This document shows positions 5,322-23,567 of a DNA stretch of 27,490 bases, piece after piece. The stretch is from a virus. The DNA is taken from positions 1 through 27,490 of the IMG/VR virus record IMGVR_UViG_3300007519_000061. One strand, 5' to 3'. Position 1 is the stretch's first letter; each line of letters opens with the position of its first letter. The notes under the pieces are model-generated. The model was not told where the DNA came from. It did not search any database and saw only the letters and a list, made by a program, of their open reading frames with translations. Made by a program: the position numbers and the translations under genes.

Positions 5322-5403
5322 GGGGCCGGACGGTTTCGACGGCAGATGATCCCCGCATGCGGCCGTCTGTCGGACTGGGGTTCAATTCCCCACGGCTCCA
5401 CGA
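5322..5403 (+). ncRNA. Tag-less mini-tmRNA: tRNA-like domain of ssrA with a short P2 hairpin
   Basis: The 5' end, GGGGCCGGACGGTTTCGAC (5322-5340), matches the start of actinobacterial tmRNA (GGGGCUGAACGGUUUCGAC in M. tuberculosis, from memory) at 17 of 19 bases. Acceptor stem: GGGGCCG (5322-5328) pairs with CGGCTCC (5393-5399), including G3-U70, the alanine identity pair. Discriminator A5400 is followed by CGA instead of CCA. T-arm: TGGGG/CCCCA around the 7-base loop TTCAATT (5376-5392). GGAC (5372-5375) sits before the T-arm as in tmRNA. P2: GGCAGA (5341-5346) pairs with TCTGTC (5366-5371), extendable by two pairs. In normal tmRNA about 300 bases with the tag ORF and pseudoknots lie here; this RNA has only a hairpin loop. 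There is no 5-bp anticodon stem with a 7-base loop, so it is not a tRNA. Confidence 0.85.
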
Positions 5404-17245: not shown

Positions 17246-17418
17246 TGGATTTGAAGTCTGATGGGCGTGATGTGAATGTGCGGTTGCGGGATGATGTGTG
17301 GGCGATGGAGGAACCTGGCACTTTGTCTTTGACTCGGACTCAGGCTCACACGCTGCGGTTACATTTGAACGCTTGGGCGATTGCCACACAGTTCGAGGAC
17401 ATTGAGGAAGATGGCTAA
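17242..17418 (+). CDS. Hypothetical protein, 58 residues
   Basis: The ORF starts with ATGATG overlapping the previous stop. The hydrophilic sequence has a beta-like start (DVNVRLRDDVWAMEEPGTLSLT) and a C-terminal helix (TQAHTLRLHLNAWAIATQFEDIEE). No family is recognised. Its stop meets the 3' end of the minus-strand WhiB-like gene, overlapping by four bases. Confidence 0.5.
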   Translation: MMDLKSDGRDVNVRLRDDVWAMEEPGTLSLTRTQAHTLRLHLNAWAIATQFEDIEEDG

Positions 17419-17669
17419 CGCTCCGATGGGAGAGTTCCAGCCCACACCCCATAACGCTCATCTGCTTCAGTAGCGTAGGCAAAACATTGTTCCTTGATAG
17501 GGCACTGGTTGCAGAGTTTGCGGGCCACCTTGATGGCATACTCCCTGGTTTGTTTGTCAGGGAAGTCCTCGGGGAAGAACACATCAGGGCAGTCCATGCA
17601 GGGCACACCACCTGCACTGTCTATAGCGTCACGCAGTTTGTGATGTGGGGACTGTCTGTGGTTGCTCAT
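17415..17669 (-). CDS. WhiB-like iron-sulfur transcription factor
   Basis: In this 84-residue protein, Cys at 24 and 27, then Cys53-x2-Cys56-x5-Cys62 provide the four Fe-S ligands of WhiB proteins (C27 or C24 as the first), and GVWAG at 74-78 is the family turn that precedes a basic tail, here very short (TLPSER). WhiB proteins are confined to Actinobacteria and their phages. The start is ATG 17669, placed six bases after the -10 TACGAT; an in-frame codon at 17759 would extend into the promoter. Phage WhiB proteins are known to interfere with host WhiB2 in mycobacteria; that role is only possible here. Confidence 0.85.
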   Translation of the reverse strand: MSNHRQSPHHKLRDAIDSAGGVPCMDCPDVFFPEDFPDKQTREYAIKVARKLCNQCPIKEQCFAYATEADERYGVWAGTLPSER

Positions 17670-17675
17670 ACAGTT

Positions 17676-17681
17676 ATCGTA
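17676..17681 (-). promoter_or_regulatory. -10 of the leaderless WhiB-like gene
   Basis: On the minus strand TACGAT is followed by exactly six bases (AACTGT) and then the ATG, with no ribosome site. A weak -35 TTCCAA lies at 17704 to 17699. The divergent plus-strand gene starts within this region. Confidence 0.5.
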
Positions 17682-17698
17682 ACGGAGGGGAAACAGTT

Positions 17699-17893
17699 TT
17701 GGAAACAATGACAGTGGAGGGGTTAGCTGACCTAATCCTTGAAGGGTGGAATTGCGCAATGTCTGACAGTGGGTATGTGTGGGAGAAAGCTCACAGGGAA
17801 GTGACGGCAGCGGTTTCGGCCCTCGATGAGTTCACAGTAAACGCAGCCTACGAGGTTGCGAAAGGAAGGTGGGTGCGCGGTGATTACAGCTGA
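17699..17893 (+). CDS. Hypothetical protein with TTG start
   Basis: GGAGGGG lies eight bases before TTG 17699, which I take as the start (64 residues); ATG 17708 is the alternative. The protein is helical and acidic: TVEGLADLILEGWNCAMSDSGYVWEKAHREVTAAVSALDEFTVNAAYEVAKGRW. No family is recognised. It overlaps the exonuclease start by 14 bases. Confidence 0.5.
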   Translation: METMTVEGLADLILEGWNCAMSDSGYVWEKAHREVTAAVSALDEFTVNAAYEVAKGRWVRGDYS

Positions 17894-20845: not shown

Positions 20846-20886
20846 TTGTGCCAGTGGGTGTAGAGTGTTGCTATAACTGAATAAGA

Positions 20887-20967
20887 GATGGCCCCCCGCG
20901 AGGTGGAGTGCAGGAGGCCATCAGTAAACCGATGACATAACCATCGGCTAGTTACAAGTCTAGCCGG
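20887..20967 (+). promoter_or_regulatory. Cluster of three hairpins in the leader of the replication gene
   Basis: Hairpin 1: GATGGCC/GGCCATC (20887-20893, 20916-20922). Hairpin 2: CCGATG/CATCGG (20929-20934, 20942-20947). Hairpin 3: CGGCTAG/CTAGCCG (20945-20951, 20960-20966). Hairpins 2 and 3 share bases 20945-20947 and cannot form together fully. There is no T-run, so this is not a simple terminator; the leader may switch between folds, or bind a protein. A possible -10 TATAAC lies at 20872-20877. Confidence 0.55.
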
Positions 20968-20982
20968 TAGAAGGGCAAGACA

Positions 20983-21711
20983 GTGAACGACCAACTCGAC
21001 TCAGAGATCCGCTTCAGCATCATCCCTGAATGGCTCACCTATTCTGGCGTATCCGATAAGGCTGTCAGGCTTTACTCTGTGCTTGCTCGTTACGCAGATA
21101 ATCGAACCCATGAGGCGTTTCCCTCCCGTGAAACTTTGGCAGAGAAGATGGGTTGCTCAGCTAAGTCCATTGATAGGGCCAGTCAAGAGCTGATCGAAGT
21201 AGGCGCAATCACTAAACGGCAGCGCCACAACAGCTCGCTTGTTTACACATTGAGGGTGTCTAGGGGGGTAGACACCACTGTCCAGGGGGGCTCGACACCA
21301 CTGTCCAGGGGGGTAGACAAGGGTGTCCACCTAACTAGAACTACTGAACTAGAACCAGATAACTATATTGAAAAGAAATCCCAAAGAGCCACATCAATCC
21401 CTCACCCATACCGGCTGCCGATAGAAATCGCAGAGGTGTTGCAGGAGAAATACCCTTCACTTGACTTACCTGAGCAGAGGGATGCGTTCGTGGACTTCCA
21501 CACCGCTAAGGGATCCGTGTTCAAGGATTGGAATGCTGCTTTTAGGAACTGGTGTCGTAATGCGGTGAAGTTTGCGGAGCCTCGGACTGTGATTCATAAG
21601 CAAGCTTTGAAGCCTGCCGCTGAGTTGCCAGACGCGAGGGCGTGGGTAAAAAGTATGCACGATATTGGGGAGCATTGGGAGTGTAGGGCTGGGGAGTTTG
21701 GTTGTAAGTAG
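20983..21711 (+). CDS. Replication initiator-like protein (winged helix, DnaD/lambda O-like layout)
   Basis: The 242-residue protein starts with GTG. Residues about 15-90 form a winged helix (YSGVSDKAVRLYSVLARYADNRTHEAFPSRETLAEKMGCSAKSIDRASQELIEVGAITKRQR), as in phage replication proteins. Residues about 92-140 are a polar linker, encoded by the iteron DNA. Residues about 160-200 contain EQRDAFVDFHTAKGSVFKDWNAAFRNWCRNAVKF, a pattern seen in DnaT/DnaD-type helicase-loader domains. It probably opens the origin and recruits host helicase, since the phage encodes none. Confidence 0.7.
   Translation: MNDQLDSEIRFSIIPEWLTYSGVSDKAVRLYSVLARYADNRTHEAFPSRETLAEKMGCSAKSIDRASQELIEVGAITKRQRHNSSLVYTLRVSRGVDTTVQGGSTPLSRGVDKGVHLTRTTELEPDNYIEKKSQRATSIPHPYRLPIEIAEVLQEKYPSLDLPEQRDAFVDFHTAKGSVFKDWNAAFRNWCRNAVKFAEPRTVIHKQALKPAAELPDARAWVKSMHDIGEHWECRAGEFGCK
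21256..21327. repeat. Iteron-like array with GACA-N4-TGTC dyads inside the initiator gene
   Basis: The 20-mer GACACCACTGTCCAGGGGGG occurs exactly at 21271-21290 and 21294-21313. A third, diverged unit GACAAGGGTGTC lies at 21316-21327, and a partial one (GTGTCTAGGGGGG) at 21256-21268. Each of the three full units is a GACA/TGTC dyad; starts are 23 and 22 bases apart. Iterons within the initiator gene mark the origin in lambda-type phages. Confidence 0.7.
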
Positions 21712-21770: not shown

Positions 21771-21881
21771 ATGTCTACGTGCGAAATTGCAGAAGTTAGC
21801 ACCTGTGAAACCGACACACGCAACATATCGGGTATGACCGTCTGTGAGCCCTGCTATGCATGGCTCAACAACGTAGCCTAA
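21771..21881 (+). CDS. 36-residue Cys-rich microprotein
   Basis: The sequence has Cys4, Cys12, Cys25 and Cys28 (CEPC), enough for one zinc site, with NISGMTVCEPCYAWLNNVA at the end, a pattern seen in host zinc-ribbon proteins. It has a promoter and a strong ribosome site of its own. Its function is unknown; small zinc peptides expressed early are candidates for host take-over factors. Confidence 0.6.
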   Translation: MSTCEIAEVSTCETDTRNISGMTVCEPCYAWLNNVA

Positions 21882-21933
21882 CTAAAGAAGGCGGGCTGGG
21901 AGTAATCCCACCCTTTAGGAAAGGGAAATCAAA

Positions 21934-22059
21934 ATGACTACAACACTAAACACCAAGACACTCTATGTAGGCGAAGAGCAGGGTGAGGTTCTCTGCATCA
22001 AGTGTGCAGGTGTCCTCGCTAATCGAAACCATCCAGGCAATCAGCACGATGCTGGCTGA
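21934..22059 (+). CDS. 41-residue CxxC microprotein
   Basis: The peptide MTTTLNTKTLYVGEEQGEVL is followed by CIKC and two His residues (NHPGNQHDAG), a possible Cys2His2 zinc site. GGAAAGGG lies before the ATG. It is the second small zinc-type protein in a row; both lie behind the TATACT promoter. Confidence 0.55.
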   Translation: MTTTLNTKTLYVGEEQGEVLCIKCAGVLANRNHPGNQHDAG

Positions 22060-22065
22060 CAACAG

Positions 22066-22940: not shown

Positions 22941-22970
22941 TTGGCTCCCTAGTGTCTAGTGGTATACAGT
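22941..22970 (+). promoter_or_regulatory. Promoter before the RNA ligase gene
   Basis: -35 TTGGCT (22941-22946), 18 bases, -10 TACAGT (22965-22970), then exactly six bases to the ATG at 22977. This is the best complete promoter among the leaderless starts. Confidence 0.5.
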
Positions 22971-22976
22971 GGGGTT

Positions 22977-23567
22977 ATGTGCAACACAAAAGAAGGGGAA
23001 ATGATGAAAAAAATACCAACACTGTTTGTGCGTGACCTGGAAGATAGGGCGCATGTTACTGATGAGGTCACGCCGGGGTGCGAGTGGGTGTTAGCTGGTG
23101 AGGGTGTGGCGACCCGGAAGTATGATGGCACTTGCATGATGCTCGATAACAATGGTGAGTGGTGGGCTCGCCGCGAGGTTAAGCCGGGCAAAGCTGCACC
23201 CGAGAATTATCTGGTCGATAACGTGGATGAGGTGACGGGCAAGACTCAGGGCTGGGAGCCTGTGGGGCAGAGTCCCTTTGCAAAGTTTCACGCCGAGGCG
23301 ACAGCCGGTTGGTTTGGCTGGAAAGCTGGGACTTACGAACTGGTTGGGCCAAAAGTCCAGGGCAATCCCGAAAAAGTAAAGGCTCACGAACTTATCTTGC
23401 ACGATGCTGCGGAAGTTTTGCAGATTGCGTCTTATGAGATTGGGTTTATCAAAATGTTTGTTTCCAACTTGAGCAAGAATGGCTGGGAAGGCATTGTGTG
23501 GCATCATCCTGATGGCCGTATGACGAAACTGAAGGCGCGAGACCTGAAAGGGGGACACAATGAGTGA
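22977..23567 (+). CDS. RNA ligase (nucleotidyltransferase superfamily)
   Basis: The 196-residue protein is a compact ligase of the DUF5565-like RNA ligase kind. Motif I is TRKYDGT with Lys48 as the AMP-accepting residue; GTYELVGPKVQGNPE (about 118-132) fits motif III; WEGIVWHH (about 170-177) fits motif IV; KLKARDL (184-190) fits motif V. It joins or repairs RNA ends, probably nicked tRNAs or other structured RNAs. Possible starts are ATG 22977 (leaderless promoter) and ATG 23001/23004 behind GAAGGGG. No partner kinase-phosphatase is seen. Confidence 0.8.
   Translation: MCNTKEGEMMKKIPTLFVRDLEDRAHVTDEVTPGCEWVLAGEGVATRKYDGTCMMLDNNGEWWARREVKPGKAAPENYLVDNVDEVTGKTQGWEPVGQSPFAKFHAEATAGWFGWKAGTYELVGPKVQGNPEKVKAHELILHDAAEVLQIASYEIGFIKMFVSNLSKNGWEGIVWHHPDGRMTKLKARDLKGGHNE

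Follow-up and report, generated by a model that had tools for sequence, protein, structure and literature searches.

An iteron array and a conserved AT-rich element within an HTH_36 initiator gene as a probable lambda-like phage replication origin

The gene of a winged-helix replication initiator, located on a 27.5 kb viral contig from IMG/VR (the whole of this 27,490-nucleotide stretch is referred to here as the window), contains an array of dyad iterons followed directly by a conserved AT-rich element. From the sequence, we consider it very probable that the two together constitute the phage replication origin, embedded in the initiator gene as in lambda and made up of iterons and an unwinding element. 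The array is under constraint at the DNA level, is present in homologous genes where it co-varies with the winged-helix (wHTH) domain of the encoded protein, is flanked by a conserved tract, and has a non-coding counterpart in other phages. The features referred to below are as follows.

20983–21711, plus strand: initiator gene, GTG start, 242 aa, comprising a wHTH domain (PF13730, HTH_36), a disordered linker, a helical C-domain and a conserved C-terminal tail
21010–21258, plus strand: winged-helix DNA-binding domain, residues about 10–92, high confidence in AlphaFold2 (AF2), putatively iteron-binding
21257–21329, plus strand: iteron array, about three units of TGTCCAGGGGGGTAGACACCAC at 23 and 22 bp spacing with overlapping GACA-N4-TGTC dyads
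21271–21282, plus strand: dyad 1, GACACCACTGTC, GACA-N4-TGTC
21294–21305, plus strand: dyad 2, GACACCACTGTC, GACA-N4-TGTC
21316–21327, plus strand: dyad 3, GACAAGGGTGTC, GACA-N4-TGTC
21330–21369, plus strand: AT-rich element, CCTAACTAGAACTACTGAACTAGAACCAGATAACTATATT, candidate DNA-unwinding element immediately 3′ of the array
21400–21576, plus strand: C-terminal helical domain (AF2; phrog_1408), swapped independently of the wHTH and array, candidate for machinery recruitment
21628–21708, plus strand: C-terminal tail, pattern ...WV..MHD.GEHWEC..GEFGCK

The host of the phage is likely an actinobacterium, since the window carries a gene for a WhiB-family transcription factor at 17415–17759 on the minus strand (PF02467, 8.6e-14), a family typical of these bacteria and the phages that infect them, and since two relatives of the initiator from the genome collection sit in one Microbacteriaceae MAG. 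The initiator protein matches Pfam HTH_36 (PF13730) over residues 24–74 at 4.6e-13 and 49.2 bits, above the gathering cut-off of 25 bits. In PHROG, it matches replication initiation families (phrog_270, 4e-16; phrog_1032, 2e-14) and phrog_391, "replication initiation O-like" (1e-9), and its residues 123–218 match phrog_1408. A RepA_N domain (PF06970) gave no Pfam match in the protein at E ≤ 0.1. AF2, used with a 22-sequence alignment, predicted a confident winged helix at residues ~10–92 and helices at 147–198; residues 94–134 between them have a pLDDT below 50, so that the polar linker proposed in the earlier note to separate the winged helix from the C-terminal domain holds as a description. 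The closest PDB folds were initiator or Rep-DNA structures (4PQL, 4PT7 and 5KBJ), a weak match at E 2.5e-3, and a profile-based PDB sequence search returned nothing relevant. The C-terminal tail, WV..MHD.GEHWEC..GEFGCK, is common to initiators with otherwise different domains (the window, L010–L014 and L040–L049); its two histidines and two cysteines are possible metal ligands, and the tail is perhaps a contact peptide for the host replisome. Immediately 5′ of the gene, the non-coding leader at 20846–20985 folds better than shuffled sequences (z = −2.17), with several consecutive hairpins, and could act as a regulatory leader.

Three GACA-N4-TGTC dyads, two of them within perfect 20-base repeats and spaced 22–23 bases apart, had been reported in the earlier note, and we recovered them as described. 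Start-to-start distances are 23 and 22 bp (TRF score 103), and dyads 1 and 2 are held by identical 20-mers, GACACCACTGTCCAGGGGGG, at 21271–21290 and 21294–21313; a fourth, partial unit, TGTCTAGGGGGG, begins at 21257. The interval proposed for the feature, 21256–21327, had correct coordinates but covered the array only; the AT-rich flank at 21330–21369, whose AACTAGAAC repeats adjoining the array had been overlooked, belongs to the feature too. Across the whole 27.5 kb window, GACANNNNTGTC occurs three times, always within the interval above, against a chance expectation of 0.34, and a count of three was reached in 1 of 100 shuffles. Neither 23 nor 22 is divisible by three, so the array copies fall in different reading frames and specify different residues (SRGVDTTVQ, GGSTPLSRG and VDKGVHL). 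The self-repeat score of the initiator gene, 23.0, was reached by none of 400 synonymous-codon shuffles, the largest value being 14.5.

Two further readings of the array were set aside: RNA structure was ruled out, as the array RNA shows no special fold relative to shuffles (z = 0.10), and an explanation by DnaA boxes was dropped, as TTGTCCACA occurs at chance level in the window and is absent from the proposed origin. GC skew showed no inflection at the array and is uninformative here because nearly all genes run in the same direction.

Homologues comprised relatives from viral contigs and two from the genome collection, and in each of the 22 genes scored, the strongest 15–30 bp self-repeat of the whole gene was compared with 200 synonymous shuffles. 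The presence of the repeats in homologues, on which the earlier note had made its reading depend, was confirmed: in all 22 genes, the strongest self-repeat falls in the same linker, with periods of 21–23 bp and a sequence that varies with the DNA-binding domain. Eighteen of the genes beat 200/200 shuffles and three more were matched by one or two, while the array of L026 was not significant (17/200 shuffles reach its score). The array sequences are of the types GACA-N4-TGTC, TGACACCACAGTCA, TCATCACCNNTGATGA and GGGCGACAAAAACGAC; L008 and L009 have weak dyad symmetry. Linker arrays are also found in Arthrobacter phages Kovu, Prairie, LiSara, Edmundo and Waltz, in Bifidobacterium phages PMBT6 and Bbif-1, and in enterobacterial phages.

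By pairwise comparison, the array sequence tracks the N-terminal wHTH (Mantel r = 0.56, p = 0.0005) but not, to a significant degree, the C-terminal domain (Mantel r = 0.06, p = 0.23), and the two domains are themselves uncorrelated (Mantel, 0.07). Natural chimeras show the same behavior. The window and L003 have C-domains that are 94% identical, wHTH domains that are 57% identical, and different arrays; L003 and L031 have wHTH domains that are 86% identical, similar arrays (6-mer similarity 0.80), and C-domains with just 9% identity. That the array follows the wHTH and not the C-domain is expected of cognate initiator–iteron modules. It is improbable that the repeats are instead an operator at which the wHTH protein would repress or road-block the transcription of downstream genes or its own. 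Autoregulation is frequent among wHTH proteins, plasmid iterons can double as copy-number control sites, and some isolate homologues carry a transcriptional-repressor annotation; however, in 15 genes, the 300 nt preceding the start contained no array-like site, and an operator leaves unexplained the conserved AT-rich motif 3′ of the arrays and its non-coding counterpart after a wHTH gene, both described below.

The conserved AT-rich AACTAGAAC repeats are the strongest evidence for a DNA element at this site. The two copies, at 21333–21341 and 21347–21355, lie 14 bp apart (a 14-bp repeat in TRF) and are the only two in the window, against 0.11 expected; the element at 21330–21369 is 69% AT versus 48% for the initiator gene. 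In the 22 genes, the tract 3′ of the array is 58–71% AT versus gene averages of 45–50%. Family-wide, in same-residue pairs, synonymous codon identity in the element is 0.89 against 0.38 expected, the value in the wHTH being 39%. Within 90 nt past the array, 16 family genes together contain 28 copies of the core A[GT]AACCA, versus 0.89 expected by synonymous shuffle, and the core is found nowhere else in these genes. Arthrobacter phages Kovu and LiSara have the same element after their arrays, and because the copies in LiSara lie in another frame, we read the constraint as acting on the DNA.

A motif scan of IMG/VR viral contigs with CTAGAACC, using DNA only and no protein input, returned 93 distinct places. 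Forty-one were within wHTH ORFs, and every one of these is preceded, within 100 nt on the 5′ side of the motif, by an array of 21–23 bp repeats, the figure for control windows taken from the same loci being 5%; the remaining 52 fell outside such ORFs, many of them being ELEP-like coding repeats. Matches to a variant, CTTAGAAC, were mostly unrelated low-complexity or coding sequence, and the plasmid collection held no match to the AACTAGAACCA element. We do not claim that this element is universal because S107-type enterobacterial and Bbif-type genes have arrays in which the core motif is weak or absent. The motif is likewise missing from lambda, Panchino and the gene of DelaGarza, whose array is borderline, and is weak in others. 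At two places (L148 around 6153 and L134 around 220), a AACTAGAACC pair stands, apparently intergenic, after repeated GCAGGGGGAGG units; no wHTH gene was recognized nearby, and each is possibly an origin apart from its initiator gene.

In L104, L107 and L141, the motif was found beside repeats past the end of an HTH_36-type ORF. Relatives of these three amount to 75 loci, in which the protein, about 130 aa long, consists of the wHTH alone (HTH_36 was confirmed in two of the loci), their nearest isolates being Bacillus phage vB_BauS_KLEB27-1 and Paenibacillus phages. The wHTH stop codon is followed by short repeats and then by sequences such as CACACTAACTAGAACCATCTTTTAACTAGAGCCATTAATAACTAGATAAATAAT. 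In 23 representatives, the first 200 nt past the stop codon contain 39 copies of AA[CG]NA[GT]A[AG]CCA versus 0.10 expected, with spacings of 13–18 bp; the ORFs of the same representatives have none.

Swaps of wHTH–array cassettes join at the conserved AT-rich stretch in three pairs (L003/window, L006/L007 and L023/L025), and flank conservation within the window's own family could be due partly to recent recombination. It is nevertheless quite improbable that the stretch is a recombination joint only, serving to swap these cassettes between C-terminal domains, as the motif is found in Arthrobacter phages at 30–47% protein identity, partly in another frame, and in the non-coding DNA of the Bacillus-type loci, where a recent shared joint is unlikely; the stretch may combine both roles, joint and functional element. 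Partition and incompatibility are further functions of iteron arrays, and the Bbif-1 initiator has a parB-like gene immediately upstream, but a centromere-like, incompatibility or packaging site in place of an origin seems very unlikely here, given that no ParA/ParB match was found among the window ORFs scanned and that initiation is favored both by the AT-rich flank and by the way the array co-varies with the wHTH of the protein whose gene contains it. Finally, it is scarcely credible that a repetitive, low-complexity linker peptide gave rise to the repeats as a by-product, through protein-level repetition or codon bias: one subgroup (L032–L038, L050 and L051) does have a 21 bp period and the peptide repeat DKNVRRG, but a period of 22–23 bp leaves the peptide without a repeat in the window and in most of the homologues, the repeat score is not regained by synonymous shuffling, and the same DNA plan without coding in the Bacillus-type loci excludes a purely protein-level cause.

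For an origin within the initiator gene, the reading we prefer, we infer that the winged-helix N-terminal domain, probably as a dimer, binds the dyad iterons at 21257–21329, which would be phased about two helical turns apart. The resulting initiator–iteron nucleoprotein complex would strain and then open the AT-rich element at 21330–21369, and the AACTAGAACCA repeats may persist because the initiator or a host factor recognizes them, double- or single-stranded, at the opening or loading step. Recruitment of the host helicase or primase would fall to the C-terminal domain and the tail, and the linker peptide encoded by the array would be a passive spacer. No helicase-loader gene was recognized beside the initiator in a Pfam scan of the downstream ORFs other than the very small ones at 21771–22060, which gave GNAT, RNA ligase and RusA, so that direct recruitment of host factors by the initiator would be likely.

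The lambda O plan suggested in the earlier note is supported by the initiator gene, its internal iterons and the AT-rich flank on their 3′ side. As in lambda O/ori-lambda and Stx phages, a wHTH-type initiator carries mid-gene iterons (18-bp in lambda, ~20–24 bp apart), and in lambda too an AT-rich tract flanks the iterons on the 3′ side (L052; PMC7466680). The window thus shows the lambda-O-type arrangement of an array between DNA-binding and C-terminal domains, dyads at ~20–24 bp, and a 3′ AT-rich tract. Under the same scoring, lambda O gave 13.5 (0/200 shuffles), with the array at the iterons annotated in its record. Unlike the window, lambda has other iteron sequences, a purine-rich AT tract without AACTAGAACCA, and an adjacent loader gene, P; a "helicase loader" also adjoins the initiator in Kovu and DelaGarza.

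In RepA_N initiators (pSK41), the N-terminal domain binds Rep boxes central in rep, the middle part, encoded by the ori, serves as a linker that can be dispensed with, and the C-terminal domain contacts DnaG; autonomous replication is reported for plasmid pPR9, in whose chimeric Rep a phage-like PF13730 domain is combined with a swapped origin region (PMC5703833). The window initiator shares the PF13730 domain with pPR9 Rep, and the domain swaps in its family parallel the modular plasmid initiators of that study. It differs from RepA_N plasmids in having no RepA_N Pfam match and a weak fold match, and in belonging to a phage. For mycobacteriophages with RepA, a lambda-like origin has been suspected within or beside repA, and the regions examined gave no repeats (PMC7157519). 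RepA-like proteins of mycobacteriophages and Arthrobacter phages resemble the window initiator in being actinophage HTH initiators, with linker arrays in Kovu, LiSara and Prairie; the RepA proteins of that study have 320–350 aa. Like the 13-mers of Escherichia coli oriC and RK2 and the DnaA-trio, the window element is short, repeated, sequence-specific, AT-rich and beside initiator boxes, and the sequence of a DUE matters beyond its AT content (PMC5043065); it differs from them in its sequence, AACTAGAACCA, its 13–18 bp period, the lack of DnaA-box enrichment, and the lack of 3-bp periodicity by eye.

The intragenic-origin architecture is already known from lambda O and RepA_N plasmids; what is new here is the shared AACTAGAACCA element, together with the exchange of cassettes and the pairing of coding with non-coding versions. 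Among the papers listed in a literature search for the motif string, none dealt with phages or origins, and within the literature searched, the shared element appears undescribed. We tentatively propose, giving the idea somewhat less than an even chance, that AACTAGAACCA (core A[GT]AACCA, two to three copies, 13–18 bp apart) is an undescribed origin-opening element of HTH_36 initiators in actinobacterial and Bacillus/Paenibacillus phages, whether coding or non-coding. If true, this would imply a conserved factor that reads it, either an initiator domain or a host protein, and the reader of such a candidate sequence-specific unwinding element, common to phages of two phyla, is directly testable. 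To our knowledge, most actinophage origins are unmapped, and looking for AACTAGAACCA behind a linker array of the initiator gene would offer a simple sequence rule for locating them. The swapped pairs of DNA-binding domain and iterons form a natural collection for working out recognition.

Elsewhere in the window, the early region carries an RNA ligase gene at 22959–23567 (phrog_14301, 1.9e-51; PF17720, 1.9e-8). An 82-nt RNA at 5322–5403 on the plus strand matches the Rfam tmRNA model end to end at 71.6 bits. It keeps the tmRNA 5′ end and the 3′ tRNA-like domain, whose acceptor stem is of the G3-U70 type, and 13 nt stand in for about 304 positions of the model, those of the tag message and pseudoknots. 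Streptomyces phages Shaeky and pSt2308 have similar stretches, which are unannotated.
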